Below, piece after piece: positions 1 through 47,157 of a stretch of 64,000 nucleotides of DNA. Every line of letters starts with the position of its first letter. Within the stretch, counting starts at the first letter, position 1. Source of the stretch: Peristeroidobacter agariperforans. GTDB taxonomy: Bacteria; Pseudomonadota; Gammaproteobacteria; Steroidobacterales; Steroidobacteraceae. The stretch is from contig NZ_RYFW01000002.1 in NCBI RefSeq assembly GCF_004138335.1, positions 911,501 through 975,500 on the forward strand, written 5' to 3'. The position numbers and the translations under genes were made by a program. Under the pieces are notes generated by a model. It had not been told where the DNA came from. It ran no database searches and saw nothing but the letters and a program-made list of their open reading frames with translations.

Positions 1-3000
1 GCGCTGGCTTATACGTTGCAAACCGGTCGCGAGGCGATGGACGAGCGCCTCGGCATGATCGTGGGCTCGGTCGAGCAACTCGCGTCGAAGTTGCAAGCAC
101 AGCTGGATGGCAAGCCGCACAGCGACGATGGGCGAGGCCAGGTCAAACGCAAGGAAGCGGCGGCGCTGTTCGGCAGCGAAGCTGACGTGCAACGAATCCT
201 CGACGGTGCAATTGCCAGCAAAGATCTGATCAGGCTGCTGGATCTCTGGGTCAAGGGGCTGGCGCTGGATTGGCGAAAGCTCTACGGAGAGAGCGCGCCG
301 GCGCGCCTGAGTCTGCCCACGTATCCATTCGCGAAAGAGCGGTACTGGATGGATAGAACGGCAGAGGTCCGTGCGGTCGCCGCACCGGCAACAGCGATTC
401 TGCATCCCTTGCTTCACACCAACACGTCGGAACTCGGGCAGCAACGCTACAGCTCGACGTTTACTGGTCGCGAAACATTCCTCGTCGAGCGGACCTTGCC
501 AGCGGGCGCTTATCTGGAGATGGCACGAGCTGCGATCGAACACGCGTCCTCGGAGCGTCCGAAGTCGGCGGTGCTCGAGCTGCGAGAGGTGGTCTGGGCG
601 GAGTCGATCGAAGTCGACGAAACGCGGCCCATCAGCGTGGCCTTGCGGACCAGTGCGACGGAGGGAGTCGATTTCGAGATCTACAGCGAAGCTGGCGAGG
701 AGATCATCCATTGCCAGGGGCGCGCTGTGTTCGATCAGGACCCCGGGCCGATCGAGCTCGATCTCGATCGTCTCGGGAGCCAGGCGGGCGATCGGCAACG
801 TCTCATGCAACTCCGCGCGCTATCGGAGGTAGGGGAGTTGGGCCTGCATCCCAGCTTGATTGAAGATGCCCTGCAGGCCGTGCGTGCCCTGATCGCTGGC
901 ACGAAGTCACTCGCGACCTCACCGCGCTTGCCGCTCGAGCTGCATTGCCTGCGCATGCTTCGCAAGTGCGAAGCGCAAATGATGGCCTGGATCCGCTTCT
1001 CGGACAGTGCTCGCGTCGATGTCGATCTCTGCGACGTGCAGGGGCGTGTCTGCGTTCAGATGCGCGGGATCAGCTATCCAACCGAGCCGCCACTGACTTC
1101 TCTACCAGTCCCTACTGCTGTGACGGCCATTGCGCCGAAGCCGAAGGAAATCGCAATGCTCCCGACTGTTACCCCCTCTGTGGTGCTGGGCGAGTTGCAC
1201 TCGCCGCAAGCCGCTCCGGTCGAGCGCAAGAAGGCCACCGGCATTTCGTTGGCTGCGCCGGCTGAAGTTGCCGGATCGAGCGCTGTCAGTTTGTACCAGC
1301 ACGGCAGCGGCGTTTATTCCATTCGCATTGCCACGCCGGACGGCAACATGCTCTCCGCCGAGGTGATCGAGAAACTGGTTCAGGCGCTGGCCACGGCGAA
1401 ACAAGCGGCCGACCTGAAAGCCCTGATCATCAATGGGGCAGAGCGGTGTTTCCTGCGTGGCGGCTGCCAGCAGTACGACCGCGCTGTCGAGCAAGGGCTG
1501 TTCCATGCGATTGTTTCCTTTCCATGCCCGGTCATCGCAGCCATGCGTGGCGACGCGACCGGAGCGGGATTCCTGGTGGGAACGCTTGCTGACTTCATGA
1601 TCTGCGGCGAGCAAGCCACCTACAGTTACACCCGGCTGAGCGACGACTTCTATCCCACGGCCGAGCAGGTGGCGCTCTTCAACGACCGTTTTGGCGAGGC
1701 GCGCGCGCACGACCTTTTGTATGTGTCGCTTACTGCAACCGGAACGGAGCTGCGTGACAAGTGCTGGACCTGCCCGATCGTCCCGCAGGCGGAAGTCGAA
1801 AGCTATGCGCTGGAATTGGCGCAGTCGTTGTCCGCGAAGTCCCAACAGGCGCTGCATCTGCTGAAGCAGCACTTGTCACGTCGCTTGCTCGAGCAGGTGA
1901 AGAGCCTCACCGTCGGTCAAGGGGAACGGACAACCGCCGAGCGGCCGTTGAATGAAGCGGGTTTCGCGGCACGAATCACTTCGCCCTCCGGCGATCTGCA
2001 GCTGGAGAGTCGTGCGGGCAACGTGCTCCTCATCCGGATCCGAGACACCCAGCAGTCGTGGGACGACTTGTCTCGCGACTTGCAGGATGTGTTTGCGAAG
2101 GTCAGCGCCGCGTCTTGCCACAAGGTCATCGTCCTGGCGAGCGACTGCCCGGAATTCCTGCCGGCCGTCGCTGCGTCAGCGCAGGCAGCGCGAAAGCTGT
2201 GGCAGCTGATCGTCGAAGCCAAGGTGCCGGTCATCGGTGCTTTGAGCCGGAATGCTCGCGGCTTCGCGTGGCTGACCAGTCAGTTCTTCGATGCATGTAT
2301 CTACAACAAGGACGGTCGCTATTCGTTGACCGACGCGAGCGGTGAGTTCGCAATGGCCGATGAAGCCGCGGCAGTCTTTCCGCTGCGCTTCGGTGACTAT
2401 TTCGGCAAGGAGTTGTTGCTTACGGGCGGGGAATACACGGGCGCCGAACTGCAGCGACGTGTCGGTGCGCTGACTGTTGGTGAGCACGATCAAGTGCTGT
2501 CGGTGGCGCTGCGCCTGGCAGGCGAGTGGTCCTCGCTCCGGGTCGATGCCATCGGTTCGTGGAAGCGGCACATGTCTGCGCTGCTTCGGGATCGATTGTC
2601 GAGCGTGGCGGCCGGTCGTGCCGAGATCGATCTCGGGGACGAAACCCCGGCTTCATTGCCGGTCGCGCCGACTTCGGTCCGGCTCGACTCGGAGGTCATA
2701 TCCGCGGTCGCGCACCCCGAAGGCATCCTGGTCATCAAGATGGAGGATCGCCAGGCGAAGAACATGTTTTCCAAGGCCTTCGTCGCAGGCGTCGAGGAAG
2801 CATTCGCGCACATCAAGACGAGCTCGGCCTACAAGGCCGTGATTCTCACTGGCTACGACAGCTACTTTGCCTGCGGCGGTACGCAGGAAAGTCTGCTGGC
2901 CATCCAGGAAGGCAAAGAGAAGTTCACCGACGCCAGGATCTACCAGCTCGCCATGGAGTGCGAAGTGCCGGTGATCGCGGCCATGCAGGGACACGGCCTC

Positions 3001-6000
3001 GGCGGCGGCTGGACGCTCGGCATGTTCGCTGACTTCGTCGTGATGAGCGAACAAAGCCGTTACGTAAGCCCGTACATGGACTATGGATTCACGCCGGGCG
3101 CCGGCGCGACGCTGATTCTGCCTCGGCAACTCGGTGCAGACCTGGCAAAAGAAAGCCTGCTGACCGCTCGGCCCTATACCGGCACACAGTTGCGAGACCG
3201 CGGTTTGTTGCTTCCCGTGGCGTCTCGGAGCGAGGTCCTGACGACTGCAATGGCGTTGGCGAAGAAGATCGCGCAGATGCCGCGCGGCCGGCTGGTGCGG
3301 TTCAAACAGAAACTCACTCGATCCGTGCTGGCCGTCGTCGACGAGACCTATCGGCGGGAACTGGCGATGCATGAGCAGACGTTTGTGGGCCAGTCGGTGG
3401 CGATGGAACAGATCCAACGCAACTTCCTGCAGATCGGCGCCGCCGAAGGCGAATCAAATGCGATCGTTGCGCCGCCGAGCGTCACGGTTGCGCGTGCCGA
3501 AGCCAACCCGTTGCCTGCGATTACGGCCAAGCTCAAGCAGCTGCTGGCGCAAGAGCTGCACATGCAGGAAAGCGACGTGGATGAGGACGTGCAGTTCATC
3601 GACCTGGGCATGGATTCGATTGCCGCCGTGACCTGGGTGCGCAAGATCAATGAGGCTTACAAGATGTCGATGCTGGCCACCAAGGTGTACAGCTATCCGA
3701 CCCTGACCCAGCTCGCCAGGCACATCAAAGAAGAGACGGACAAACTCTTGCCGCCGCCCGTGGTGAGCAGTGCTGTCGTTGCCGATGTTCCGGTCGCGCC
3801 ACCGCAGAAATTGAAGGCTCCCTATACCAGCGCTGCACGGCTCACCACTCGAAAGCTCGTTTCCTGGCGCAACCGAGCGCCTGTAAAACAAGCTCCGCGT
3901 GCGGTCGAGGCTGCATTGTCGCAACCTATCGCGGTGGTCGGGATGGCGGGCCAGTTCCCGCAAGCCCGGAATCTGCAAGAGTTCTGGCGCAACATCGCTG
4001 CAGGCAAGAACTGCATTTCACGCGTTCCGGCGCAGCGCTGGGACATGGACGCGTACTACAGCGAGAGCGTCGTCGCGGGCAAGACCAATTGCCAATGGAT
4101 GGGAGCGCTCGACGAGTACGATCTGTTCGATCCATTGTTCTTCAACATTTCGCCCATCGAAGCGGAGTGCATGGATCCGGAACAGCGCCTGTTCCTGCAG
4201 GCGTGCTGGCACAGTATCGAAGACGCCGGCTATGACGCGAAATCGTTGTCCGGCAGCAAATGCGGCGTTTTCGTCGGGTGCACGGGCAGTGACTATCGCC
4301 AGTTGTCGCCGGAGCTGCGCTTCTCCGCGCAGGGCTTCACCGGCGGGGCCAATTCCATTCTCGCTGCGCGCATTTCTTACCTTCTGAATCTGCGGGGACC
4401 CTGTGTGTCCGTCGACACCGCGTGCTCTTCATCGCTGGTGGCGTTGGCACAGGCCTGCGATAGCCTGGCGATGGGCAACAGCGACGTGGCCTTGGCCGGC
4501 GGCGTCGCGCTGATGTCGACTCCCGAGATGCACATCAAGACCGCGCAGGCGGGAATGCTGTCGCCCGACGGACGCTGCTTCACTTTCGATCAGCGCGCCA
4601 ACGGCTTCGTCCCGGGAGAAGCGGTCGGGGTCGTGATGTTGAAGCGGCTCGCCGATGCGGAGCGGGATGGGGACACGATTTATGGCGTGATCCAGGGCTG
4701 GGGCGTCAATCAGGATGGTAAGACCAACGGCATCACCGCGCCCAATCCCGAATCGCAGACCCGGCTGCAACAGGATGTCTACGACAAGTATCAGATCGAT
4801 CCGGCGGGCATTCAGCTGATCGAAGCTCACGGCACCGGCACGAAGCTGGGCGATCCCATCGAAGTCGAGGGACTCAAAGGCTCCTTCGGCAAGTACACCC
4901 AGAAGAAGGGCTACTGCGCGCTGGGCTCGGTCAAGAGCAACGTCGGGCACTGTCTCGCAGCCGCCGGCATCGCCGGCTTCATCAAGCTGGTGCTCGCCTT
5001 ACAGCATCGGCAGCTGCCGCCGACTGTGAATTTCGACCGGTTGAACGAGCACATCGGTCTCGCCGACAGCCCGTTCTACGTCAACGATCGCTTGCAATCC
5101 TGGGACGTGGCCGAGACCGAGCGACGGCGTGCCGCCATCAGCGCATTCGGGTTCAGCGGCACGAATGCTCATGTGGTCGTGGCGGAACCCGTGATTCGAG
5201 AGGAGGCACGACGAGTGCGCCCCGACAGCAATGGCGTGATCGTCCCGCTGTCGGCACGCATGCCGGAGCAGCTCGAGCAGAAGGCTCGCGAACTGTTGGA
5301 CTTCATTAGTAACGCTGAGGAGTCGATCGATCTGGTGGCGCTGGCCTATACCCTGCAAGTAGGCAGGGAAGCGATGGAGGAGCGGCTGGGCTTGCTCGTG
5401 AGCTCGATCGCGCAACTGGCCGAAAAGCTCGAGGCGTTCCTGAGCGGCGCGCGTGACAGCGACGGTGTGTATCGAGGCCAGATGCAGAACGCCAAGGAAA
5501 CCCTGAGCCTCTTTGCCCAGGATGCCGACATGAAAGAGGCGATCGTCGATCGGTGCATCGCCCAGCGGCAGTTCGGCAAACTGTTGGGTCTGTGGAGCAA
5601 GGGTCTCGACCTCGACTGGCGCAGGCTCTATAGCGACTCGAAGCCCAAGCGCATGCGGCTGCCGCTGTATCCATTTGCGAAGCAGCGCTACTGGATCGAG
5701 TCGTCGCAGGCAATGCAAGCCGCTGCAAGCACCGATGCGCCGGCGCTCCTGCACCCCTTGCTGCACACGAACGCGTCGGACTTCACCGGGCAGAAATATC
5801 GATCCAAGTTCAGCGGTACGGAATTCTTCCTGCGAGATCACCGCGTCAAGCTCGGCGGCCTCGGTGTGCAGAAGGTGCTGCCCGGTGTCGCCTATCTGGA
5901 AATGGTTCGTGCGGCCCTACAGCACGCGGCGCCGGCGCAACCCAAATCGCCCTTGGTGGAGATCAGCGAGTTCGTCTGGTTGAAGCCGGTGGTCGTGACC

Positions 6001-6705: not shown

Positions 6706-6713
6706 GCGAGCGA

Positions 6714-9700: not shown

Positions 9701-12700
9701 CAATCCACACATCGATTTCGATCGCACGCCGTTCGTGGTGAATCAGTCGCTGCGCGAATGGGAATGCCACGAAGTTGACGGCCAGCGCGTGCCGCGCATC
9801 GCCGGGATCTCCTCGTTCGGGGCCGGCGGCTCGAATGCGCACGTGATCGTCGAGGAGTATCGAGCCACATCAGCCGCTGCCGCCCGAGCTGACGAGCAGG
9901 TTGTCGTTCCATTGTCGGCAAAGACGACGGCGCAGCTGGAGCAGAAGGCGCGAGATCTGCTGGCCTTCATTGGCGCGCAAACGGATGCGCTCGATCTGAT
10001 ATGCCTGGCACATACGCTGCAGGTCGGCCGCGAAGCGCTCGAAGAGCGCTTGGGTCTGGTGGCAGGCTCGGTGGAGCAGCTGACCGACCAGCTCCAGCAA
10101 TTCCTCGCGGGTAACATTGCCGTCGATGGCCTGTATCGCGGCCAGGCCGGGCGCCACAACACACCGTTGTCGGTGCTGAGTGCCGATGCGGATTTCCGGG
10201 AGGTCGTCGATCGATGGATCGCCGAGGGCAAGCTGTCGAAGCTGGTCGAGTCCTGGGTCAACGGGGTGGAGGTGGGCTGGCAGAAATTTCATGAGGGCCG
10301 CCAGACGCCGCGGCTCATGAGCTTGCCCGGCTATCCGTTTGCTAAAGAGCGCTACTGGCTTGCGCTGCCGTCGCCTCTTGCGACCGCGCCGACTCAAACC
10401 ACGGCGCTGTTGCATCCATTGGTCCACAAGAACACCTCGACTCTGGCGCAGCAGAGCTACACCTCCAGCTTCAGTGGGACGGAGTCGTTCCTGGAGCGCG
10501 ATGAGGCAACCGATCGAACGCTGCTGCCTGAGTGGACCGCGCTGGAGATGATGCGCGCTGCGGTTGAGCTCGCATCGTCGAGCCGGTCTCCGTCGGACGT
10601 GCTCGAACTGCGCGACATCGCGTGGGGCAGGCCGATCGAAGTGATCGCAGATCGATCCATTCGCGTCGCGCTGCAGCCGCGGGACGATGGCAGCATCGAT
10701 GTCGAAATTGTGAGTGCCGACGGCATCGTCCATTGTCAGAGCACCGCTGCTTACACCGTTGCACAAACCCCGGATCGTCTGGATATCGCGCAGCTCGAGT
10801 CGGCGAAGCGCGTTCGCTTGGCAGCACCGAGCGGTGGCGAGAAGGAGCGTTATTCCTTGTGTCCGGAGCTGCTGAAGCTCGTCGCTGAGAGCGCAACGAA
10901 CTTCGCAGGCGAGAAGATCGCTTTGCTGTCGATGCACCGGGTGCGCCTGCTGATCGAGTGTCCTGACAACGCGCTGATTTCGATTCGACGAGCCGCACCC
11001 GCCGGCCTCGACATTGACGTGTGCAACGAGCAGGGCGATGTATGCCTGCAGGCTCGCGGCTTGCAATATGAAGTGGCAGAGAATACTGCCGTCGCAGTGC
11101 CTGCACTCTCGGTGCGATCTGAGCCCAGAGAGATTCCGCTTGGGGTTGAGCCGGCCGCGCCGGTCGAAGCTCCCGTTGCGGCCAAGGCCAGAAAAGTCAC
11201 ATTGGCCGCCACGGATGAGCTGCCGGCGAGCGAGGCAGCGCCACGAGCGGCCGTGACTCTGCTCGACCTGGCCTCGCCAGATTCGGCGCCGGCAACCGTC
11301 CCGCCGACGAGCCCGTTAGTGAAGCTTTTCGATCTGGGCAACGGCGTGTTCTCCATTGACATCGCGTCTGCGCCCGATGCGGCGCCGGCAACGGTCATCG
11401 AGTCGCTGCTGAACGCTGTGCGCGCCGCGCGGCGGGAAGCCTCTCTGAAGGTGTTACTGATCAAAGGCAAAAACGGCTTCTGGCCTGGCGACAGAGCAGC
11501 CTGCAATCGAGCGATTGACCGCCGCCTGTTCAGCGAGGTCGCATCGTTCCCGTTCCCTGTGATTGCAGTCATGCAAGGTGATGCCTGCGGCAGTGGCTTC
11601 TTGCTCGCCAGCGTCTGCGACCTGATGGTCGGCAGCAAGGAAGGTCGCTACGAATTCACGAGCCCACGGCTGGGACTCTTCCCGACCAAGAGTGAAGAGC
11701 GCTTCTTCGTCGAGCGCTTCGGCGCAGTGCAGACGGATGAGCTGTTATATCGAACCGGCCCCTGGACCGGCGAACAACTGCTGAAGAAGGGATGGACTTG
11801 CTGGATCGTGCCTGCTGCAAAGGTCGACATCAAGGCAATGGAGCTTGCCGCGGATCTTGCGCAGAAGTCCCACACGTCGCTGCGCTTGCTGAAGGAGCAC
11901 CTGGCGCGCGAGCTCGTGCCGCTCGTCGATGCGCTCACGGTCGCAACTCCGACGGAAGCGCCAGGTGGACTCGATGCTCGAACTCGCACCAAGATCGTTT
12001 CGCCGGTCGCGCACCTTTCGCTCGAGGCCTCGACCGAGAACGTCGCTGTCGTCCAGATCGGATCGAGCGATGTCGGTATCAAACCGCTGATTGCCGACCT
12101 GGCAGCGTTGTTCGAGCAGATCGGGCAATTCTCCGGCTACCGCGCCATCGTGTTGACGAGCGCTCAGTCAGGCTTCCTGCCTTCGAGTGAAACAGTTGAC
12201 GCGGGCGCGACATTAGAACTGCGCCGATTGGTACAGGGTTGCAAGGTGCCTGTGATCACGGCCTTCCGGGGCGACGCCGAGGGCGCCGCCTGGTTGCTGG
12301 GATTGTGGAGCGATGCCTGTGTGTATCAAACACAGGGACGCTACCGCGCAAACGCTCCTTGGGAACATCTGGTCAATGGCCAGGCCTCGCCGTCGTCAGC
12401 TTCGATCAACGAAGCGTTTCAACCAGTTGCAAGTTCGTCGAAGTCGGGGAAGTCGATAGATCAAAGCTTCCGTAGGGCAGATCCAGCGCTGGCTCGCGAA
12501 ATCGCGTCTCTGTCCGTGAGCCGACTTGGGCCAGCGCTGGGTCAGGAAGCTTGCCTGACGGGCCGCAGTTACAAAGGCGCCGATCTGCGTGCCCGAGCGG
12601 GTGCGCTGACGGTGGTCGACGCGGCGGACGTGATTCCGCAGGCGTTGCGTTTGGCCGAGTTCTGGGCGGAGTGGCCACGCGAGACTATCGAAGCCTGGAA

Positions 12701-15700
12701 GCAGTCGCGCGTGACCGCGGCGGAGCACGCTCCGGAAATTCTGCCGGTAGAGGAGGAGGCGACGCCAACCTCTGCACCGAAGGTCCCTCGATCCGATGCA
12801 GTGACGGTGGCCAACGATGCCGATGGCGTCGCTGTGATCACCATGCACGATCGGCAGACGAAGAATCTGTTCTCCGAATCGTTGCTGAGCGCCGTGAAGC
12901 AGGCCTTTGCATACGTCGAGCACACGCCGGCTTGCAAAGTGGTCGTGCTCACCGGCTATGACACGTACTTCGCGGCGGGCGGCACCAAGGGAACATTGCT
13001 GTCGATCCAGCAGGGTAAGGCGCAGTTCACCGACGAGCGCATTTACGAGATCGCCTTGAACTGCTCTCTGCCCGTGATCGCCGCCATGCAGGGGCACGCC
13101 ATCGGCGCCGGCTGGTCGCTCGGCATGTTTGCCGACCTGGTCGTGCTCGGCGAAGAGAGTCGTTTTCACAGCCCTTACATGGGTTATGGCTTCACCCCGG
13201 GTGCGGGCGCAACGCTGGTGTTCCCTCGAAAGATCGGCCACGACCTGGCACGCGAAACGTTGCTCACGGCACGCGAGATCGCCGGTCATGAGCTGCGAGA
13301 TCGTGGACTGCAGGTGGCGGTCATGCCGCGGCGGGAGGTCTTGTCGGCGGCCATCGAGCTGGCCCGAAACATTGCCAAGCATTCCAGAAGCCAATTGAAG
13401 GCCCTGAAACGTCAGTGGACGCATTCCCTCCGCCAGGCGCGCGAGGAGGTCTATCGACGCGAAGTACAGATGCACGAGCAGACGTTCGTGGGCAAGGACG
13501 ATACCCTGGCGCAGATCGAGACCAAGTTCTCGAACGCACCGGTCGTGGCAAGTCCCCGCGTGGAGGCCGCTCAATCGACAGCAAACGAAGGCCCGAACCT
13601 TCGCGACGTGATCGCAACGCTCCGGGGCCTGCTCGCGCATGAGTTGCACATGCAGGCCGACGGCATCGACGAAGGCGTGCAGTTCACCGATCTCGGGCTG
13701 GATTCGATCACGGGCGTGACCTGGATCCGCAAGATCAACGACCGCTATGGCACGAGCATCGAAGCGACCAAGGTCTACAGCTATCCGACGCTGGCAGAAC
13801 TCAGTCGGTTCGTGATGCAGGAAGCTGGCAAGACGGCGCCGTTTTCTGCGTCGGTGCAACCACGCGCGGCGCCAGCCGAGCCCGCACGACCCAAGGTGGC
13901 GCCACCGAAAACTGCACGTCGCGAGCTGGTGTCGCGATTGAATCGCGAGCCGGTGCGTCTACGTTCGAGTGTCAGTCCACGAAACGCGGCTACGGTTCAG
14001 CGCATCGCCGTGATTGGCATGGCGGGGCAGTTCCCCAAGGCGAACGATCTCGACCAGTTCTGGGAAAACATTGCCGCAGGCCGCGATTGCATCAGTGAAG
14101 TGGCCAACAAACGCTGGCGCCTGGACGATTACTATCAGCCGGGCGAAGCGGCGGCAGGGAAGACGTACAGCAAGTGGCTTGGTGCGCTGGAAGACTACGA
14201 CGCGTTCGACCCGCTGTTCTTCAACATCTCGCCCACCGAGGCGGAGTGCATGGATCCGCAGCAGCGCGTATTCCTGCAAGCGTGCTGGCACGGCATCGAG
14301 AACGCGGGTTATGACTCCCAATCCCTATCCGGCAGTCGCTGCGGCGTCTTCGTCGGCTGCGCGGCTGGCGACTACCACCAGCTGCCTCGCAGGAATCCGC
14401 TGGGTGCGCAAGATTTCACTGGCGCGGCGACCTCGATCTTGGCGGCTCGCATCGCATACTTCTTGAATCTGCGCGGCCCCTGTCTTTCCATCGACACGGC
14501 GTGCTCATCGTCACTGGTTGCGATTGCGGAAGCGTGCGACAGCCTGAGCTCCGGCACGAGCGATCTGGCATTGGCCGGCGGCGTCTATGTGATGTCCGGT
14601 CCGTCGATGCACATCATGACATCGCAGGCCGGCATGCTCTCGAGCGACGGCCGATGTTTCACCTTCGATCAGCGCGCCAATGGCTTCGTAATCGGCGAAG
14701 GCGTCGGCGTCGTGGTGTTGAAGCGTCTGGCCGATGCCGAGCGCGACGGCGACCGGATCCTCGGCGTGATCGAAGGCTGGGGCGTGAATCAGGACGGCAA
14801 GACCAACGGCATCACTGCCCCGAACGAGGACAGCCAGGCGCGTCTGCTGCAATCCATCTACGAGCGATTCGAGATCGATCCGGCAGGCATACAGCTCATC
14901 GAGGCGCACGGCACCGGCACGAAACTCGGCGATCCGATCGAGGTCGCGGGCTTGAAGGCAGCCTTCAAGCCATTCACGGATCGACAGGACTACTGCGCGC
15001 TCGGTTCGGTGAAGAGCAACATTGGCCATTGCTTGACCGCTGCCGGCGTGGCGGGTGTCGCGAAGCTGTTGCTGGCCATGAGGCATCGCCAGCTGCCGCC
15101 TGCTGCGAACTTCTCGCAATGTAACGAGCACATCGACCTCTCCGGCACGCCTTTCTATGTCAACGGCAGCCTGGCTGATTGGAATGTTGCGGATCAGGGG
15201 CTCCGGCGCGCGGCGGTGAGCTCGTTCGGATTCAGCGGCACCAATGCTCACATTGTGATTGCGGAGCATGCGGGGTCTGCGCAGTTGGAGTTCGACGCGC
15301 CGGTCTGGCCACAGGGCGAGAAGTTCATCGTGCCGCTGTCGGCAAGGAATGAAACCCAGCTGCGACAGAAGGCCGAGGACTTGCTGAAGTCTCTGCGCAA
15401 GCGAGGCGCAACGCTGCGGTTGGTCGATGTGGCCTACACGCTGCAAGTGGCTCGCGATTCTATGTCGGATCGCGTGGTCTTCCTGGCCGGGTCACTCGAC
15501 GAACTGATCGCCAGGCTCGAAGCGTATGTAGCGAGCGAAGCCGAGATCGCCGGCGCGTTCCGGGGGCTGGCGAAGCAAAACAAAGACGAGATGAAGCTGT
15601 TCACGCAGGACGACGATGTCCGCACGACCATGGTTGGCAAGTGGTTGCGTGAGCGCAAGCTCGCCAAGCTGGCGCAGTGGTGGTCGAAGGGCCTGACGCT

Positions 15701-24500: not shown

Positions 24501-27500
24501 CGCAGGTGTCGACGAGTTCGATCCTTTGTTCTTTGGCATCTCGCCGCGTGAGGCGCGGCTCATGGATCCGCAGGAACGTTTGTTCCTTCAGCATGCGTGG
24601 ATGGCCGTCGAAGATGCCGGTTATACACGTGCTTCTCTGCAGGTACCGCGCACACACGGGCTGCCCGGCCAGGTCGGTGTCTACGTCGGCGTGATGTATG
24701 GCGAATATAACTTGTCGGGCAGTCTCGCCGGCATCGCGAATCGGGTCTCGTCGGTGATGAATTTTCACGGCCCCAGCATGTCGCTGGACACGATGTGCTC
24801 ATCCTCGCTGACTGCCATTCACCTCGCTTGCCAGGATCTGAAGCAGGGGCGCACGGACGTGGCGATTGCGGGCGGTGTGAACGTCAGCATTCATCCGAGC
24901 AAATACCTGATGCTGAGCGCCGGGCAATTCATCTCCAGCGATGGCCATTGCCAGAGTTTCGGCGAGGGTGGCGATGGTTACATTCCCGGCGAGGGTGTGG
25001 GCGCGGTGGTGCTCAAGCGCCTGGCCGATGCCGAGCGAGATGGCGATCGCATCTACGGCATCATCCGCGGCAGCGCCCTGAATCATGGCGGCAAGACCAA
25101 TGGCTACACCGTGCCGAATCCGCAAGCTCAGGCGAGCGTGATTCGCCAGGCATTGACGGACTCCAACACCGATCCTCGCCATGTCTCGTACATCGAGGCG
25201 CACGGCACCGGCACGAAGCTTGGCGACCCCATCGAGATTGCGGCGTTGAGTAAGGCGTTTGACGAGCTCGGCCGAGAGAGGGCGCAAAACGAATCGCGCA
25301 GCGCCTGCGCGGTCGGATCAGCGAAGTCGAATATCGGCCATTGTGAGTCTGCCGCTGGTATTGCCGGCCTCACGAAAGTCCTGCTGCAAATGCAGTATCG
25401 GCAGCTCGTTCCTTCGTTGCATTCGGCTCGCCTGAATCCGCACATTGATTTCGAGCGCACCCCGTTCGTGGTCAATCAAGCGCTGCGAGCGTGGGAACAG
25501 CCGGTCTGCGAGGGAACGCCGCTGCCGCGGATCGCGGGCATTTCTTCCTTTGGTGCCGGTGGTTCGAACGCCCACGTCGTGGTCGAGGAGTACGTGCCGT
25601 CCGCCCGAACCGAGTCGGTGCGTGGGCCGGTGATCATTCCGCTCTCTGCGAGAACGGCGGATCAGCTGAAGCAGCGTGCCCGCGACTTGCTCGATTTCAT
25701 TCGTGCACGCGAGCCGGAAGGGTCGATTGATCTGGCTGGCATGGCGTACACGCTGCAGGCAGGCCGAGAGGCGATGGACATCCGCCTCGGCTTCATCGTC
25801 GATACAGTCGCGCAACTCGCCGAGAAGTTGGAAGCGTATCTGTCGAGCACGGATATCGTCGGTGCAGACATTGAGGGAATGTGCGAAGCGCGGATCAGGG
25901 ATCACAAGGAAACGCTGTCCGGCTTCAGTGAGGATCCGGACTTCCAGGACACGATCGACAGGTGGCTGGCGCGCAAGAACCTGCCCAAGTTGCTGGACGT
26001 GTGGGCAAAGGGGTTGGACTTGAACTGGTCCAAGCTCTACGACACGCCGCCGCGTCGAGTGAGCTTGCCGACGTATCCATTCGCGAAGGAGAAGTATTGG
26101 ATCGAGACGGTCGGGCAGGTTGTGAAGAGCGCGCTGCAGTCGGCAGCGACGGCGGCTGCGACCAAGCCGAAGTCGATTCAGTTGGACAGCGCACCGGCCG
26201 GCGGCGCCGTGGGGACAGCGAGCAAACCGAAGGCGGTGGCGTTGATCGGATTGCAGGAACTCGATGCGGATCAAGCGACCGCGCGGATCGCGATGCTCGA
26301 GCAGGTCCAACAGACGGACCCGCTGGAGCAGGCCGAGCAGGCTCAGCAAATCGCTCAAACCCCGCGGCACGAGCAGACCGCTGTGGTCGAACAGGCCGAG
26401 CAGATCGAGGTCATCGAAGAGTTCGAGCTCGTCGAAGCCATCGAGTCGCAGGTCGACTCCGTCGCTGTGGACACGCCGATAGCGCTGCCATCGCTGAGCG
26501 ACTTGCAGCGGAGACTGAGCGCCACCCTGGCCGAAGCGCTGTACATGGACGTGGCCGATGTCGACAGCGAGAAGTCGTTTGTCGATCTGGGCCTGGACTC
26601 CATCGTTGGCGTCGAGTGGGTGAAGGTCATCAACAAACACTATGGCCTGTCGCTCGCCGCCACTCGTGTGTACGACTATCCGAACATCAAGGAGCTGGCG
26701 TCTTTTGTCGCAAAGGAATTGGCTCAGCAGGCGGCGGTTGCCAGACCGGTGTCCAGGCCGATCGCGAAACCTGTCGCGGTCGAGAAGCCAGCATCCGTGC
26801 CGGCAGCCAGCATTGCCGTGAAGCGAACGACATCGGTCGCAAAGTCTGTTGCGACAGTCAGCCGTGAGCAACTCGTCGATCGGACACCCGAGCCTGTGGT
26901 CGATTCTTCGCAGCAGACGGTCATGCCGCCGTCCGGAAAGATCGCCGTTGTCGGCATGTCTGGCAGATATCCGCAGGCGGACAATCTGGGGCAGTACTGG
27001 GACAACCTGGCTCGAGGAAGAAATTCCATCGTCGAAATTCCCAACTCGCGCTGGCGCGTGAATGACTATTTCGACGCCGATCCGACCAAGCCAGGCAAGG
27101 TGTATTGCAAGTGGCTCGGCCTGCTCGAGGACGTGGACTGCTTCGATCCGCTGTTCTTCCAGATCTCGCCCGCCGAGGCGCAGGCCATGGATCCACAGCA
27201 TCGGCTGTTCATGCAGGAAGCCTATCGGGCATTCGAAGACGCGGGCTACTCGAACACGGCGCTCAGCAATGTGAAGTGCGGTGTCTATCTCGGGATCATG
27301 AGCAACGAGTACTCGTTGCTGCTCGCCAAGGACAGCTCCATCAACGCCGCCGCTACTGGAACGAGCTACGCCATTGGCGCCGCGCGCATCGCCTATCACC
27401 TGAATCTGAAGGGACCAGCGATCCCGATCGACACCGCGTGCTCGTCGTCGCTCGTGTCCATCCATCTGGCTTGCCAGGCGTTGATGAATCGCGAGATCGA

Positions 27501-33312: not shown

Positions 33313-33332
33313 GCCCGCAAGCCATTGCGGGC
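33313..33332 (+). other. Strong hairpin between PKS-C and the transporter gene
   Basis: GCCCGCAA (33313-33320) and TTGCGGGC (33325-33332) form a perfect 8-bp stem with a GCCA loop, 18 bases after the PKS-C stop. No T-run follows, so it is at most a weak terminator or attenuator. It overlaps a misleading upstream TTG start; the real transporter start lies beyond it. Confidence 0.45.
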
Positions 33333-33354
33333 CCTCAATCAATGTAGGACTGCC

Positions 33355-35937: not shown

Positions 35938-35966
35938 ATCAATCATCGCAACTGAAGGAGATTCCC

Positions 35967-36854
35967 ATGAAAACCTACTGGGGCGCGATTGCCCGTGCAC
36001 TGGCCATCGGCTGTTTGATGGCGCCATTGCGGCTGCCTGCCGCCATGACCGGTCCCGAGATCATGAAGATGGTCGACGACGTGAACCGCAAGGCGTTCAC
36101 GACGGCGGTCGTGAAAACGCAGTTGTCCACTTGCAAGTACGAGAAGTCGGACGGCGGCATCCGCTGCAAGGACAAGCCGCGAGTGGTCGTCCTGGAAGTC
36201 GGCGAGAAGAAATACGGTGACGACAATCGCGACGGAAAATCGATCGCGCTGGTGCTCGAGCCGATCTCGGACAAGGGCGTGGGCATGCTGCGCTATGAGT
36301 ACTACGAGGCCGACCGGGACAACGAAAACTTCCTGTATTTGCCGGCGCTGGGCAAGGTGCGCCGCCTGGTATCAGGCAGCGACAACGAGGACGGCGGCAG
36401 CTTCTTCGGCACCGAGTTCTACGGTGACGACGCGCAGGCTCGCAAGATCAACGAGTTCACTTACCAGTTGCTGCGGGAAGAAACCTACGACGAGCGGCCG
36501 ACCTGGGTCATCGAAGTGACGCCGACCGCCGAGCGCGCCAGGAAAACGGCCTATGGAAAGATCGTCGTGTGGGTGGACAAGGAGCGCAAGATCTATCTGA
36601 AGGAAGATATCTATAACCGCGCCGGCAAGCTGTATCGGCAACGCCTGTACCGGAAGTACACGCTGATCGACGACGTGTGGCTGTCGCGACAGCAGACCAT
36701 GAACAATCTGTCGACCAGCCGGATCACGTCCATCGACAACATCTCGGTCACCTATCACCGCGAAGTGCCGGACGAAGTGCTGACCGAGCGCAGCCTCACC
36801 GACTTCACCTTCAGGGAAAGGAATCTCGCCCTGCTGAGAACCTATTACCACTGA
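35967..36854 (+). CDS. Outer membrane lipoprotein-sorting (LolA-like) periplasmic protein
   Basis: This is a 295-residue exported protein with an N-terminal signal sequence (cleavage near LRLPA-A). The start ATG is preceded by AAGGAGA at ideal distance. The body (EIMKMVDDVNRKAF and following; YEYYEADRDNENFLYLPALGKVRRL; YGKIVVWVDKERKIYL) matches the LolA-like family often encoded beside MMPL permeases. These proteins have a half-barrel that can hold a lipid in the periplasm. Here it probably ferries the exported product from the permease to the outer-membrane partner. It lies 29 bases after the permease stop, so it is co-transcribed. Confidence 0.8.
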   Translation: MKTYWGAIARALAIGCLMAPLRLPAAMTGPEIMKMVDDVNRKAFTTAVVKTQLSTCKYEKSDGGIRCKDKPRVVVLEVGEKKYGDDNRDGKSIALVLEPISDKGVGMLRYEYYEADRDNENFLYLPALGKVRRLVSGSDNEDGGSFFGTEFYGDDAQARKINEFTYQLLREETYDERPTWVIEVTPTAERARKTAYGKIVVWVDKERKIYLKEDIYNRAGKLYRQRLYRKYTLIDDVWLSRQQTMNNLSTSRITSIDNISVTYHREVPDEVLTERSLTDFTFRERNLALLRTYYH

Positions 36855-39279: not shown

Positions 39280-39289
39280 AGGGCAGGCC

Positions 39290-41647: not shown

Positions 41648-41684
41648 ACTGGCATCAAAATTCCTGGTTCAAGTGGAGGTGTTC

Positions 41685-42827
41685 ATGAAAGTCTTTATGT
41701 TCCCAGGGCAGGGGTCGCAGGCCAGAGGCATGGGCGGGGCGTTGTTCGACGAGTTCGAGGCGCTCACGGCCAAGGCCGACAGCATCCTGGGATATTCCAT
41801 CAAAGAGCTGTGCCTGGAGGATCCGAGCAACCAGCTCGGCCAGACTCAATTCACCCAACCGGCCTTGTTCGTGGTCAACGCGCTGTCGTACCTGAAGAAG
41901 GTGACGGAGCAGGGCAAGCCGGATTTCGTCGCGGGCCACAGCCTCGGCGAGTTCAACGCTTTGCTTGCTGCGGAATGCTTCGATTTCGAAACAGGCTTGC
42001 GGCTGGTGCGCCGGCGCGGCGAGTTGATGAGCCGCGTCTCGAACGGCGGCATGGCGGCGATCTTGAATGCCAGCAAGGACGAGATCGAAACCATTCTGAG
42101 GCGCAATGGCCTCAAGAATATCGACCTGGCCAACTACAACACGCCGTCGCAGATCGTGATTTCCGGCCAGCTGGACGAGATCACTCAGGCGCAGTCGTTG
42201 TTCCAGGTGGGCACGATGCTCTATTACCCGCTCGTGACCAGCGGCGCGTTCCACTCGCGCTTCATGCGCAATGCGATGGAAGAGTTTGGGACGTATCTGC
42301 GCACGTTCAAATTTTCGGCGCCGAAGATTCCGGTGCTCGCGAATGTCACGGCCCGGCCTTACGAGCAGGGCAAGATCGTCGACGGTCTCTCCAATCAAAT
42401 CGCCAGCACCGTGCGCTGGTGCGAAAGCATTCAATACCTGATGGCGCTGGCCGAACACCGCGGTGAGGCCGCGGTGTTCGAGGAGGTCGGGTACGGCGAT
42501 GTGCTGACCCGCATTTTCCAAACCATCAAGCGACAGACGCCGGAATCGGCGCTCGAGCCGTACCGGGCCGAGCTGCGACGCGCCGGCTCGTCCCCGCGCG
42601 CGGCAGCATCAGCGGCGCGCGTCCCCACCGATCCGAGCGGCAAGGTCGTTGCCTGGAACACGAAATACCCCGTGGGCACGCGCGTGCGGTCCACGCTGAT
42701 GGACGATCAGCCGCTCGAGACGCGCACGCCGGCGCTGGTGCTATTTGGCCATCGCGCGGCGGTCTACATGAAAGGTTACAACGGCTATTTCGATCTCGAT
42801 GAGGTCGTGCCGTTGAAGGCTTGTTGA
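41685..42827 (+). CDS. Free-standing malonyl-CoA:ACP transacylase (trans-AT)
   Basis: This is a 380-residue transacylase with FPGQGSQARGMG at the N-terminus, GHSLGEF (nucleophile Ser86, codon 41940-41942) and GAFHSRFM, the form typical of malonyl selectivity. It should load malonate onto the AT-less PKS modules in the cytoplasm. Start ATG 41685 has GGAGG (41675-41679) five bases upstream. The AT core ends near residue 285. A C-terminal extension of about 95 residues follows, with a low-complexity spacer and then a compact segment (TRVRSTLMD, LETRTPALVLFGHRAAV, GYNGYF), which may dock to PKS or ACP. It opens the beta-branching gene set. Confidence 0.9.
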   Translation: MKVFMFPGQGSQARGMGGALFDEFEALTAKADSILGYSIKELCLEDPSNQLGQTQFTQPALFVVNALSYLKKVTEQGKPDFVAGHSLGEFNALLAAECFDFETGLRLVRRRGELMSRVSNGGMAAILNASKDEIETILRRNGLKNIDLANYNTPSQIVISGQLDEITQAQSLFQVGTMLYYPLVTSGAFHSRFMRNAMEEFGTYLRTFKFSAPKIPVLANVTARPYEQGKIVDGLSNQIASTVRWCESIQYLMALAEHRGEAAVFEEVGYGDVLTRIFQTIKRQTPESALEPYRAELRRAGSSPRAAASAARVPTDPSGKVVAWNTKYPVGTRVRSTLMDDQPLETRTPALVLFGHRAAVYMKGYNGYFDLDEVVPLKAC

Positions 42828-42865
42828 AGCTCAACACTCATCTTACGAACAGCAGGTAGCTTGTC

Positions 42866-44128
42866 ATGGTCAAGGCAGGAATCGAGGCAATGAACGTGTT
42901 CGCCGGCACCACGTTCCTGGACGTCAAGAAGCTGGCCGAGCATCGCAATCTTGATCGCAGGCGTTTCGACAATCTGCTCATGAAGCAGAAGAGCGTCACG
43001 CTGCCTTATGAAGATCCGATTACGTTCGCGGTCAACGCCGCCAGGCCCATCATCGATAGCCTGAGCGCCGAGGAGAAGGATCGCATCGAGATGGTGATCA
43101 CTTGCACCGAGTCGGCCTTCGACTTCGGCAAGTCCATGAGCACCTACTGTCACGATCTGCTCGGTTTGAATCGGAATTGCCGCCTGTTCGAGGTTAAGAA
43201 CGCGTGCTTCTCCGGCGTCGCCGGCTTCCAGAACGCGATCAACTTCGTGCTCGCGCAGGTGTCGCCGGGCGCCAAGGCGCTGGTCATTGCCACCGACATT
43301 TCACGTTTCATGATCGAAGAGGGCGGCGACGCCCTGACCATGGAATGGTCGTTCGCCGAACCGAGCAGCGGCGCGGGCGCGGTGGCGCTGTTGATCAGCG
43401 AAACGCCGCACGTGTTTCAGGTGGACCCGGGCGCGATCGGCTCGTATGGCTATGAAGTGATGGATACGTGCCGCCCCTCCACGGACAGTGAGGCAGGCGA
43501 CTCGGATCTGTCGCTCACGTCGTACCTGGACTGCAGCGAGAACGCGTTCCTCGAGTATCAGAAGCGCGTCAGCGGGGCGGACTACCAGCGCACTTTCGGC
43601 TATCTCGCCTATCACACGCCGTTCGGCGGCATGGTGAAAGGGGCCCATCGCAGCTTGATGCGCAAGCACGTGAGAGGCGTGACGCCTTCGGACATCGAAG
43701 CGGACTTCGAGCGTCGCATGGTGCCGGGCCTGACGTATTGCCAACGCGTCGGCAACATCATGGGCGCGACCGCCATGCTGTCGCTCGCGAGCACCATTGC
43801 CAACGCCAACTTCGACAAACCGCAGCGAGTCGGCGTGTTCTCGTACGGCTCGGGCTGCTGCTCGGAATTCTTCAGCGGCGTCGCCACCAAGGAAGGGCAG
43901 GAGCGCGTTCGCGCCATGGGCATCAAGGAACATCTGGATCGACGCTATGAGCTGTCGATGGACGAGTACGACGACCTGCTGGTCGGCAGCAACGCGGTGA
44001 AGTTCGGCACGCGCAACGTGGTGCTGGACTCGAACTTCATTCCCAAGGCGCGCACGACGCACGGCCGGCCGACGCTGTTCCTGAAAGAAATCAAGGAATA
44101 CGGGAGGAAGTACGAATGGGTGCAGTAA
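42866..44128 (+). CDS. HMG-CoA synthase-like beta-branching enzyme (HCS, PksG type)
   Basis: This is a 420-residue HMG-CoA-synthase-fold enzyme. The nucleophile Cys (codon 43205-43207) lies in KNACFSG, with the His in YHTPFGG; both belong to the Glu-Cys-His site of the family. It condenses acetyl carried on the donor ACP with the beta-keto group of an ACP-bound polyketide, giving an HMG-like branch. Its targets are probably the three Trp-marked ACPs of PKS-A, -B and -C. The next gene overlaps its end by 13 bases. Confidence 0.9.
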   Translation: MVKAGIEAMNVFAGTTFLDVKKLAEHRNLDRRRFDNLLMKQKSVTLPYEDPITFAVNAARPIIDSLSAEEKDRIEMVITCTESAFDFGKSMSTYCHDLLGLNRNCRLFEVKNACFSGVAGFQNAINFVLAQVSPGAKALVIATDISRFMIEEGGDALTMEWSFAEPSSGAGAVALLISETPHVFQVDPGAIGSYGYEVMDTCRPSTDSEAGDSDLSLTSYLDCSENAFLEYQKRVSGADYQRTFGYLAYHTPFGGMVKGAHRSLMRKHVRGVTPSDIEADFERRMVPGLTYCQRVGNIMGATAMLSLASTIANANFDKPQRVGVFSYGSGCCSEFFSGVATKEGQERVRAMGIKEHLDRRYELSMDEYDDLLVGSNAVKFGTRNVVLDSNFIPKARTTHGRPTLFLKEIKEYGRKYEWVQ

Positions 44129-44910
44129 TCGCGGAAGCGCTCCCGTACCAGACGCTGCGGGTGCGGGCGGCCCAGGATGTTTGTTTCATCCAGATCCACC
44201 GCCCCGACGCCAACAATTCGATCAACGATCGACTGATCGAGGAGTTCACGGCGGCACTGGATCGCTGCAGCCCGGAAATCAAGGTCGTGGTGCTCGAAGG
44301 CAGCCCCGAAGTGTTCTGCTTCGGCGCCGACTTCAAGGGTTTGCAACAGAGCTTCCAGGCCACGGGGCGGCCGGCCGTCATGGATCCGGAGCCCATGTAC
44401 GAGCTGTGGCGACGGCTTGCGTCCGGCCCCTACGTGACGATCGCTCATGTTCGTGGCCAGGCGAATGCCGGCGGCATGGGCTTCGTCGCCGCCTGCGACA
44501 TGGTGATCTGCGACGACAAGGCGACTTTCAGCCTGTCCGAGCTGTTGTTCGGACTGATGCCGGCGTGTGTGCTGCCGTTCCTCGTGCGCCGGGTCGGCTT
44601 CGCCCGCGCCAACTACATGACGCTGATGACCGAGCCCATCGCAGCGAAGACTGCGCTCGAGTGGGGCCTGGTCGATGACTGCGCCGCGGACAGCGGCAAT
44701 CTGCTCCGGAAGAAGCTGCTGCGTTTGCGTCGCCTGTCGAAGTCCGCGATCTACCGCTACAAGCGCTACGCACAGCATCTGGATGACACGCTGGAGGCGG
44801 CCAAATCGAAGGCATTGGAAGCAAACGTGGAGGTGTTCTCCGACCGAGCGAATCTGCAGAAGATCGCACGATATGTGAGCACCGGTCAGTTCCCTTGGGA
44901 AGCGGAGTAG
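44116..44910 (+). CDS. Enoyl-CoA hydratase-like dehydratase ECH1 (PksH type)
   Basis: This is a 264-residue crotonase-fold protein with a first loop FCFGADFKG, the oxyanion loop RGQANAGGMGF, and TFSLSELLFGLMPA, whose Glu is the expected catalytic acid of ECH1 dehydratases. It removes water from the HMG-type branch to give a 3-methylglutaconyl intermediate. It overlaps the HCS gene by 13 bases, which indicates translational coupling. Confidence 0.88.
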   Translation: MGAVIAEALPYQTLRVRAAQDVCFIQIHRPDANNSINDRLIEEFTAALDRCSPEIKVVVLEGSPEVFCFGADFKGLQQSFQATGRPAVMDPEPMYELWRRLASGPYVTIAHVRGQANAGGMGFVAACDMVICDDKATFSLSELLFGLMPACVLPFLVRRVGFARANYMTLMTEPIAAKTALEWGLVDDCAADSGNLLRKKLLRLRRLSKSAIYRYKRYAQHLDDTLEAAKSKALEANVEVFSDRANLQKIARYVSTGQFPWEAE

Positions 44911-44912
44911 CC

Positions 44913-45659
44913 ATGGAACCCGCGGTCGAGCTGCGTTACGTCGACGATGGCATCGCTCAGATCAGGATGCAGGATCGTGTGAGCAAGAACACGTTCTCGA
45001 TGCCGCTGGCCGAGGGCTTGATCGCGGCGTTCGCCGAGGTCAGCGAGGATGAGCGCTGCAAAGTCGTGATCCTCACCGGTTACGACAGCTATTTTGCCAG
45101 CGGCGGCACCAAGGAAAGTCTGCTGCTGCTGTCGGATGGCAAAGGCAAGTTCACCGACGTCGACCTCTACAGCCTGGCGTTGAACTGCCCCGTGCCGGTC
45201 ATCGCGGCCATGCAGGGGCACGGCATCGGCGGTGGCTTCGCGCTGGGAATGTTTGCTGATTTCCCCATCCTGAGCCGCGAAAGCATTTACACCACCAACT
45301 TCATGAAGTACGGCTTCACGCCGGGCATGGGGGCGACTTTCATCCTGCCCAGAAAGCTCGGCATTACGCTGGCGGAGGAAATGATGATCGTGGCCCGAAC
45401 CTATCGTGGCGAGGAGCTGCAGAGGCGCGGTGTGCCATTTCCAGTGCTGCCGCGAGCCGAGGTTGCCGCCTACGCGTTCGATCTGGCGAAAGACATCGCG
45501 GAGAAGCCGCGAGTGTCGCTGGTCACGCTCAAGGACCACCTGGTCGAATCGTTACGAAGCGGGCTGCCCGCGACTATCGATCAGGAGCTCGAAATGCACG
45601 AGCGGACCTTCCACCGCCCCGAGATCCGGGATCGTATCGAGACACTCTTCGGGCGTTAG
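44913..45659 (+). CDS. Enoyl-CoA hydratase-like decarboxylase ECH2 (PksI type)
   Basis: This is a 248-residue crotonase-fold protein with GYDSYFASGGTKE, AAMQGHGIGGGF, MKYGFTPGMGAT and a C-terminal MHERTF. It lacks the ECH1 Glu context. It decarboxylates the glutaconyl intermediate to the beta-methyl (or exomethylene) product. It is the closest relative in the window of ECHc in both in-line arrays, so it probably serves the PKS-C branch module, which has none. Start ATG 44913 follows CGGAG; a GTG at 44895 inside ECH1 is less likely. Confidence 0.88.
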   Translation: MEPAVELRYVDDGIAQIRMQDRVSKNTFSMPLAEGLIAAFAEVSEDERCKVVILTGYDSYFASGGTKESLLLLSDGKGKFTDVDLYSLALNCPVPVIAAMQGHGIGGGFALGMFADFPILSRESIYTTNFMKYGFTPGMGATFILPRKLGITLAEEMMIVARTYRGEELQRRGVPFPVLPRAEVAAYAFDLAKDIAEKPRVSLVTLKDHLVESLRSGLPATIDQELEMHERTFHRPEIRDRIETLFGR

Positions 45660-45683
45660 CCCGTCTTTTGACAGGAGCGCATC

Positions 45684-45923
45684 GTGAACAAAGAAGACAT
45701 CTTCGCCATCGTCACCCGCCATACGCAGGAAGTGATTCCGGCGCTGCGCGGCCATCAGTTCCAACCTACCCAGTCGCTGCGCGAGCTGGGCGCCAATTCC
45801 ATCGATCGCTCCGAGATCGTGATGATGACGCTCGAATCGCTGGCGCTGCGCATTCCGTTGGTCGAGACCGTCAAGGCCACGAACATCGGCGAGCTGGTCA
45901 ACGTGCTGCATGCAAAACTCTGA
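45684..45923 (+). CDS. Donor acyl carrier protein of the HCS cassette
   Basis: This is a 79-residue discrete ACP with ELGANSIDRSEI; Ser39 (codon 45798-45800) is the phosphopantetheine site. Asn precedes it instead of Asp and no Trp is at +6, both usual for donor ACPs of beta-branching cassettes and unlike the module ACPs. The start is GTG 45684 with AGGAGC upstream. It carries malonyl, which is decarboxylated to acetyl by the following KS-like enzyme. The next gene overlaps its end by 14 bases. Confidence 0.9.
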   Translation: MNKEDIFAIVTRHTQEVIPALRGHQFQPTQSLRELGANSIDRSEIVMMTLESLALRIPLVETVKATNIGELVNVLHAKL

Positions 45924-47157
45924 TTCATCCGCCATCCTCGTCACAGGCGTTGGCATCACCAGCGCCATCGGCCACGGTGCGGCTGACTTCACTGCGGCTT
46001 TGCTGGAAGGCAACAGCAATTTTGCGGTGATGAAGCGGCCGGGACGGCAGTGTTCGACGGGAGACGAGCCACCGACGACTCAGTTCATCGGCGCGGAGAT
46101 TCCTTCGTTCTCGCCGGCCGACGGCATCCCCGCGAGCATTCTTCGAACGGCATCGCTGTCCGGGCAAGTGGCGCTCGCTACGCTGCACGAAGCATGGCAC
46201 GACGCCAGGCTGTCGCACGTCGACCCGATGCGCATCGGCCTGGTCGTCGGTGGATCCAACGTCCAGCAACGAGAGTTGATTCGGGCTCACGAGTCCTATC
46301 GCGAGCGGCCGCAGTTCCTGCGTCCGACCTATGGTCTGTCGTTCATGGATAGTGATATCTCCGGGATGTGCAGCGAGGTCTTCGGCATCCGGGGTTTCGC
46401 ATACACCATCGGCGGTGCATCGGCCAGCGGACAGCTCGCTGCCATCCAGGCGGTGCAGGCCGTGGCGTCCGGCCAGGTCGATGTTTGTATCGCAGTCGGT
46501 GCATTGATGGATCTTTCCCATTGGGAGTGTCAGGGACTGCGGTCGCTGGGCGCGATGGGATCCGATGAGTTCGCGGCACAGCCGCAGCTCGCGTGTCGAC
46601 CCTTCGATCGGCGCACCGATGGCTTCATCTTCGGCGAATCTTGCGGAGTGGTCGTGGTGGAGCGGGCGGGTGCGGCCACGAGGGCCGGTGTACGGCCCTA
46701 TGCACGCGTCGCTGGATGGGGCGTGCGAATGGATGCCAACAGAAATCCCAATCCTTCGTTCGAGGGCGAGGTGGGTGTGATCCGGCAGGCTCTGCAAAAG
46801 GCCGGCTTCGATGCGCAGACCATCGACTACGTCAATCCGCATGGCACCGGATCGCGATTGGGCGATGCGACCGAGCTCAAGACCATCGAGGAGGTGGGAC
46901 TCAAACACGCTTATATCAACACGACCAAGTCGCTGATCGGGCACGGACTGAGCGCCGCGGGTGCGAGTGAGCTCGTCGCCACTCTGCTACAGATGCGAGC
47001 GGGCAAGCTGCATCCCTGCGGAAATCTCGAGCAGCCCATCGACGACGCTTGCAACTGGGTGCGCGGCCGCTGCGTCGATCACGATATCCAGCGTGCAGTA
47101 AAAATCAGCCTGGGTTTCAGTGGCATCAACTGCGCCATGTGCCTCGAAAGGAGTTGA
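45910..47157 (+). CDS. Decarboxylating ketosynthase-like enzyme (KSdec, PksF type)
   Basis: This is a 415-residue KS-fold protein in which the nucleophile Cys is replaced by Ser (codon 46420-46422): GGASASGQ where PKS KSs have DTACSSS. The two histidines remain (NPHGTGS, LIGHGLS). Such Cys-to-Ser KSs cannot elongate; they decarboxylate malonyl on the donor ACP to acetyl for HCS. It overlaps the donor ACP gene and closes the cassette. The next gene begins after a 52- to 88-base gap holding a candidate lux box. Confidence 0.9.
   Translation: MQNSDSSAILVTGVGITSAIGHGAADFTAALLEGNSNFAVMKRPGRQCSTGDEPPTTQFIGAEIPSFSPADGIPASILRTASLSGQVALATLHEAWHDARLSHVDPMRIGLVVGGSNVQQRELIRAHESYRERPQFLRPTYGLSFMDSDISGMCSEVFGIRGFAYTIGGASASGQLAAIQAVQAVASGQVDVCIAVGALMDLSHWECQGLRSLGAMGSDEFAAQPQLACRPFDRRTDGFIFGESCGVVVVERAGAATRAGVRPYARVAGWGVRMDANRNPNPSFEGEVGVIRQALQKAGFDAQTIDYVNPHGTGSRLGDATELKTIEEVGLKHAYINTTKSLIGHGLSAAGASELVATLLQMRAGKLHPCGNLEQPIDDACNWVRGRCVDHDIQRAVKISLGFSGINCAMCLERS

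Follow-up and report, generated by a model that had tools for sequence, protein, structure and literature searches.

ECH2-type crotonases of beta-branching polyketide synthases (PKSs) have been described both as free enzymes and as in-line domains. Here we analyse two arrays of three such tandem domains (ECHa, ECHb and ECHc), which lie in neighbouring PKS genes of Peristeroidobacter agariperforans within a stretch of 64,000 nucleotides (contig NZ_RYFW01000002.1, positions 911,501 to 975,500; hereafter the window). PksI, the free ECH2 of the bacillaene pathway (4q1g-4q1k), forms trimers in solution, every monomer having an active site of its own, and the trimer measures 83 x 75 x 39 Å (PMC7501309). 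It resembles ECHc in its catalytic His and in the trimeric disk that we propose below for the arrays (PMC7501309). Unlike the arrays, PksI is a trans-acting homotrimer with three active sites, and its Lys80 position varies in ECHc. PksH and PksI do not mix with each other, so crotonases do not assemble into heterotrimers as a matter of course; three fused copies could nevertheless do so. The ECH2 of CurF (2q2x, 2q34, 2q35) is an in-line decarboxylase like ECHc, but it is a single copy, trimerises between chains and belongs to a cis-acyltransferase (cis-AT) pathway.

Degenerate copies beside an ECH2 have also been reported. In lasonolide LasH and LasO, a truncated, inactive ECH sits just upstream of the in-line ECH2 of a Trp-flagged module; two copies are described, and the available part of the paper offers no structural reason for them (PMC9600693). 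The window arrays share with this pair the degenerate ECH upstream of ECH2, and their copy number is three, not two. A truncated ECH beside ECH2 is called common, and is associated with an exo-methylene, in the same source (PMC9600693). For kalimantacin, the in-line ECH2 (mECH) was proposed to act in cis to give the exo-methylene, in competition with the free BatE (PMC12560621). Oocydin- and phormidolide-like compounds, to which an exomethylene branch is common (PMC7930024), are named as possible in-cis cases (PMC12560621). Aurantinin Art21 ECHQ-TE is, like ECHa and ECHb, an ECH2 relative without the catalytic His, yet it is functional; it differs in being a free protein with a thioesterase, in its His to Gln replacement and in having no array (PMC11425284). 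The formation of an exo-methylene in cis by an in-line mECH (PMC12560621) and the truncated inactive ECH upstream of ECH2 (PMC9600693) are therefore already in print. The available text of open-licence PMC papers yielded neither a triple in-line ECH array nor its conservation nor the proposal of a cis trimer, though the triple may be described outside these papers; the 'tandem ECH' of NaPDoS2 is an ECH with an enoylreductase. We consider a pseudo-heterotrimer formed in cis, with one active site per array, to be the best explanation of the arrays and, judging from the predicted structure, a probable one.

Composition of the arrays and their active-site residues

Array A comprises ECHa, ECHb and ECHc in tandem at 1267-3450 in PKS-A (728 residues, about 78 kDa). 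The PKS-A frame, 5069 residues in full, runs in across the left window edge with its C-terminal part and stops at 6705. The domain order of the module is ketosynthase (KS)-dehydratase (DH)-ECHa-ECHb-ECHc-acyl carrier protein (ACP), with the KS in the same frame just upstream of the window edge. The HxxxGxxxxP motif was not spotted in the DH by inspection by eye. Pfam ECH_1 matches three stretches of the frame and the predicted fold agrees, confirming the three tandem crotonase-fold domains in a single PKS-A module that an earlier, sequence-only reading of the window had described. That reading overlooked a second, homologous triple (array B, 11304-13553), which lies in the next PKS gene (6714-21494) and is followed by an ACP (Table 1).

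The three copies differ in how readily they are recognised. Scored over its own genome, array A gave Pfam ECH_1 values of 2.8e-27 for ECHa, 2.7e-5 for ECHb and 1.7e-50 for ECHc; scored together with its neighbours, ECHb reached 28.9 bits (cut-off 27). The middle copy of array B has no match to Pfam ECH_1 and was recognised by its likeness to ECHb of array A and by NCBIfam NF005496, which matches three stretches in each of the two arrays. The insertion in this copy is absent from its counterpart in Steroidobacter agaridevorans. Among proteins of solved structure, ECHa is closest to PksI and CurF ECH2 (3.6e-22, for PksI, to 1.8e-19). Searched against PDB sequences, a profile built from 19 ECHb domains hit CurF ECH2 (6.6e-31) and PksI (3.6e-26), which rules out that ECHb is a non-crotonase. 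Moreover, the order of strands and helices is common to all three copies in the AlphaFold2 model. By their sequence relationships all copies are crotonases related to PksI and CurF ECH2, and a lack of the crotonase fold in ECHa or ECHb, which would have undermined the sequence-only reading, was not observed.

Active-site residues were counted in an alignment (A3) of 64 arrays and the two of the window, with arrays that have short ECHa or ECHc matches excluded. The column of PksI His230, the catalytic His, is occupied by His in 66/66 ECHc, 1/66 ECHa and 0/66 ECHb. The active-site loop (Lys80-Phe81) is present in all 66 ECHc and in none of the ECHa or ECHb domains. At the oxyanion Ala, 58/66 ECHc carry Ala or Ser, 51/66 ECHa carry Leu, and 47/66 ECHb carry Leu or Ile. 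Since the Lys80 column varies among the 66 ECHc (K 51, R 9, Q 3, V 2, T 1) and the PksI-K80A mutant is active (PMC7501309), we dropped this residue as a criterion of ECHc activity; given the active mutant, the Gln found here in array B need not matter. ECHc of array A is 48.8% identical to the free ECH2 of the cluster and, as claimed before, retains its motifs. The alignment likewise upholds the claims that ECHa keeps part of these motifs, namely some glycines, and that the oxyanion loop is gone from ECHb. Judged by these residues, ECHc is the only copy with the catalytic His, the active-site loop and the C-terminal helices, and by sequence and predicted fold it is an ECH2-type crotonase of beta-branching, predicted to act as a decarboxylase. 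ECHa and ECHb, which lack the His and the loop, would not qualify as active ECH2, and this supports one active copy per array.

Predicted structure, distribution and selection

We predicted the 728 residues of the array as one chain with AlphaFold2 on the 66-row alignment. The mean predicted local distance difference test score (pLDDT) was 88.9 (86.7-88.9 over five models), with low-confidence stretches at 222-232 and 725-728, and the predicted template modelling score (pTM) was 0.91, without a control prediction to compare it with. A pTM this high is not expected for three domains with undefined relative positions. The three copies are thus predicted to pack as one body and not as three independent domains. 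The model was compared with PDB chains by VIA-align, for which the best 50 of 1000 chains were listed with the first and last residues of each alignment. PksI came first among the matches listed and superimposes on ECHc at 1.4 Å over 252 residues; CurF ECH2, also among them, does so at 1.1 Å over 241 residues. Four single crotonase chains in the same list begin their alignment where ECHa starts and finish it where ECHc ends (3sll_A, 236 residues, 2.6 Å; 7mcm_B, 213, 2.4 Å; 3h02_E, 219, 4.1 Å; 4els_A, 220, 4.1 Å), and another listed MenB chain, 3t89_F, stays inside ECHa (204 residues, 2..209). No chain among the best 50 of 1000 lies on ECHb alone, which says nothing on the fold of ECHb. In the MenB trimer, the C-terminal segment crosses onto the neighbouring subunit. 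A fitting, if tentative, reading places the MenB core on ECHa and has the crossing segment run over the C-terminal helices of ECHc; ECHc would then occupy the position of the trimer neighbour of ECHa. The alignment end points hint, weakly and indirectly, at a pseudo-three-fold trimer geometry, and the model lends support, as a prediction, to the cis trimer proposed in the sequence-only reading.

To look for tandem triplets elsewhere, we took ECHc from six triple arrays as queries and, of 353 relatives, retained the 80 best, corresponding to 78 loci, a selection that favours triples. Copies were called at domain E < 0.05 with refined profiles, and some ECHa and ECHb matches are partial (e.g. 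L079). Removal of overlaps left 83 in-line ECHc: 71 in a-b-c order in one chain, 2 in split arrays, 7 in a-c order and 3 cut by contig ends. With the last three left out, 73/80 assessable in-line ECHc have three copies, including the 2 arrays divided over two consecutive genes. In this similarity-biased set, a-b-c order in a single chain accounts for 71/80. According to the record titles, the a-b-c loci come from Proteobacteria, Bacteroidota, Acidobacteriota, Verrucomicrobia, Planctomycetota and Chitinivibrionales, many of them from metagenome-assembled genomes. In the split arrays (L091, 2980-3260; L100, 2700-3000), ECHa ends the upstream PKS frame and ECHb-ECHc opens the next open reading frame (ORF), after a gap to its ATG of 73 nt in L091 and 123 nt in L100; both downstream ORFs share the start ATG CCA AAA CAA TCA. 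Modules with two copies, a dead ECH and an ECH2, occur in L083, L095, L096, L097, L099, L101 and L102, and also in L125. Four of the seven a-c doubles were examined and read KS-a-c-ACP-ACP, with tandem ACPs and no DH match. The ACPs near the arrays of relatives have Trp at Ser+6 in 63/79 cases (F in 15, L in 1). Over the class (369 genomes), the ECHc profile matched 4 genomes, with a match in a long frame in 3, namely the genome of the window, that of L091 (G640, already in the count) and G341. The ECHb profile was unhelpful as an array marker, matching 172/398 genomes at 1e-8, for the most part in frames about as long as an ordinary crotonase.

A tree of 224 domains unites the 66 ECHb (0.991) and, weakly, the 66 ECHa (0.287); in it, ECHc is joined with free ECH2 and with the ECHc of two-copy and split arrays (0.991). 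ECHa of the doubles and both ECHa and ECHb of the split arrays lie outside the two 66-member groups. Copy by copy, the two window arrays are 42% (a/a), 35% (b/b) and 52% (c/c) identical, compared with 22-26% among different copies inside one array. As the copies match better across arrays than within one, they point to an inherited three-part unit; together with the single ECHb clade, this rules out local triplication. The contiguous array looks like one old unit.

ECHa and ECHb evolve faster than ECHc, as seen in both the tree and the ratio of nonsynonymous to synonymous substitution rates (dN/dS). Between the window and S. agaridevorans (both arrays, two methods), ECHa had a dN/dS of 0.20-0.24 and ECHb one of 0.19-0.25, against 0.04-0.09 in ECHc. 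A third pair (L087/L092) gave 0.30-0.44 in the two dead copies and 0.10-0.27 in ECHc. In all three pairs the ratio of ECHa and ECHb stays well under 1, so that purifying selection still acts on them. Within the third pair, dS reached 0.56-1.19 in ECHc versus 0.18-0.22 in ECHa and ECHb. The two members, Steroidobacter gossypii (L087) and Lysobacter sp. ISL-50 (L092), share the array, located at 4564-6732 in both loci.

Cluster around the arrays

The block at 41673-47157 holds an AT, a hydroxymethylglutaryl synthase (HMGS), ECH1, ECH2, a likely donor ACP and a KS (Table 1). The cluster thus combines the features of beta-branching by a hydroxymethylglutaryl-CoA synthase (HCS) cassette: Trp at Ser+6 in both array ACPs, and HMGS, ECH1, ECH2 and KS together with the likely donor ACP. 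A Trp in this place has been reported to interact with the enzymes of beta-branching (PMC9600693). Directly 3' of the PKS genes, an MMPL-family protein and a LolA-like lipoprotein-sorting protein are encoded at 33325-36854. Three cluster ORFs (36885-38231, 39107-40546 and 40543-41553) have no Pfam match at 1e-8.

Table 1. Array domains, flagged ACPs and free beta-branching genes, in window coordinates.
Feature	Position	Strand	Remarks
ECHa, array A	1267..1968	+	crotonase without catalytic His and active-site loop
ECHb, array A	1969..2676	+	the most degenerate copy, with neither oxyanion loop, active-site loop nor His
ECHc, array A	2677..3450	+	intact ECH2-type copy with catalytic His and C-terminal helices
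ACP after array A	3529..3726	+	GMDSIAAVTW, Trp at Ser+6
ECHa, array B	11304..11987	+	first copy of second triple
ECHb, array B	11988..12779	+	insertion of ~38 residues; missed by Pfam ECH_1
ECHc, array B	12780..13553	+	catalytic His retained; Gln at PksI Lys80 position
ACP active-site motif after array B	13695..13736	+	GLDSITGVTW, Trp at Ser+6
Third ACP motif with Trp at Ser+6, no array	26590..26631	+	
Free acyltransferase (FabD-like)	41673..42827	+	
HMG synthase-like protein, HCS cassette	42866..44128	+	
Free ECH1	44116..44910	+	NCBIfam NF005498
Free ECH2, PksI-like	44895..45659	+	alternative start ATG at 44913 may apply
79-residue ORF with GANSID, likely donor ACP	45684..45923	+	judged by eye
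Free ketosynthase of cassette	45910..47157	+	NCBIfam NF005490

Possible roles of the inactive copies

In the explanation that we favour, each array would be a single-chain crotonase disk, a trimer built into the polypeptide; ECHa and ECHb would have decayed until only a structural part was left to them, closing the disk around ECHc. The Trp-flagged ACP that directly follows the array would receive a 3-methylglutaconyl-type branch from the HCS cassette and the free ECH1, and ECHc would decarboxylate this branch in cis, probably to the exo-methylene. The free ECH2 would act in trans elsewhere, perhaps on the array-less Trp-flagged ACP at 26590. A single-chain disk would also let each chain of the dimeric PKS hold a complete trimer. 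Scaffolding, which we infer to be the reason for keeping the dead copies, would account for the number three, for the loss of active sites with the fold kept, and for the split arrays.

Several points weigh against this explanation. Two copies suffice in 7/80 related modules, and two per chain make no simple trimer; these doubles do not fully fit. They may take a subunit from elsewhere or form an open pair, or they may mean that the dead copies have another task, such as gating the ACP, in line with the aurantinin ECHQ domain (PMC11425284). A further a-c double, in which ECHa scores a weak 46 bits, occurs in G341. CurF ECH2 forms its trimer without any dead copies. The pTM stands without a control, and the VIA-align ranges do not locate where an alignment switches from one domain to another. 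The ECHc of L087 and L092 looks as if it had been exchanged by recombination, which counters tight co-adaptation of the copies. Finally, an endo-methyl is predicted at one of the lasonolide modules with a truncated ECH, and the link to exo-methylene is thus not strict (PMC9600693).

Alternatively, ECHa and ECHb might be landing or gating platforms that bind the ACP or cassette enzymes and exclude the free ECH2, and they may touch ECHc without forming a trimer. Such a role has parallels in the dead ECHQ of Art21, which steers the aurantinin assembly line (PMC11425284), and in the competition between ECH2 in cis and in trans proposed for kalimantacin (PMC12560621), and it would suit the two-copy modules. 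However, the three copies form a single body in the model, and platforms would not explain why 73/80 modules have three copies, so that we regard them as rather unlikely. The loss of residues and the faster change relative to ECHc could also mean that the dead copies are functionless duplication relics joined as independent domains, but the dN/dS values in three pairs, a domain order conserved over several phyla and the pTM of 0.91 make this improbable. We give still less credence to ECHa being an in-line ECH1 dehydratase, with the array as an ECH1-ECH2 pair plus a spacer. Although the upstream copy in OnnB is termed ECH1 in a comparison of the pederin family (PMC6855096), the best solved relatives of ECHa are both ECH2, its active-site loop is missing in 66/66 arrays, and the cluster has a free ECH1. 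ECHa also lies apart from the two ECH1 in the 224-domain tree, an observation of limited weight as the tree was rooted on them.

We see about even chances that in-line ECH2s in a large group of beta-branching PKSs are disks made of one chain, with a single active site and two scaffold subunits, by which a trimeric enzyme would fit into a dimeric megasynthase, and that in the split L091 and L100 the dead ECHa joins ECHb-ECHc of the next protein and thereby also docks the two proteins to each other. Since the middle copy can be too degenerate for Pfam, as in array B, it may be worth recounting the copies in modules published with two. Beta-branching modules pose the structural question of how a dimeric PKS accommodates a trimeric ECH2; a cis disk, if true, would answer it for this group. 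It would also explain why a 'truncated, inactive' ECH is retained beside ECH2, and would warn engineers against excising such copies.

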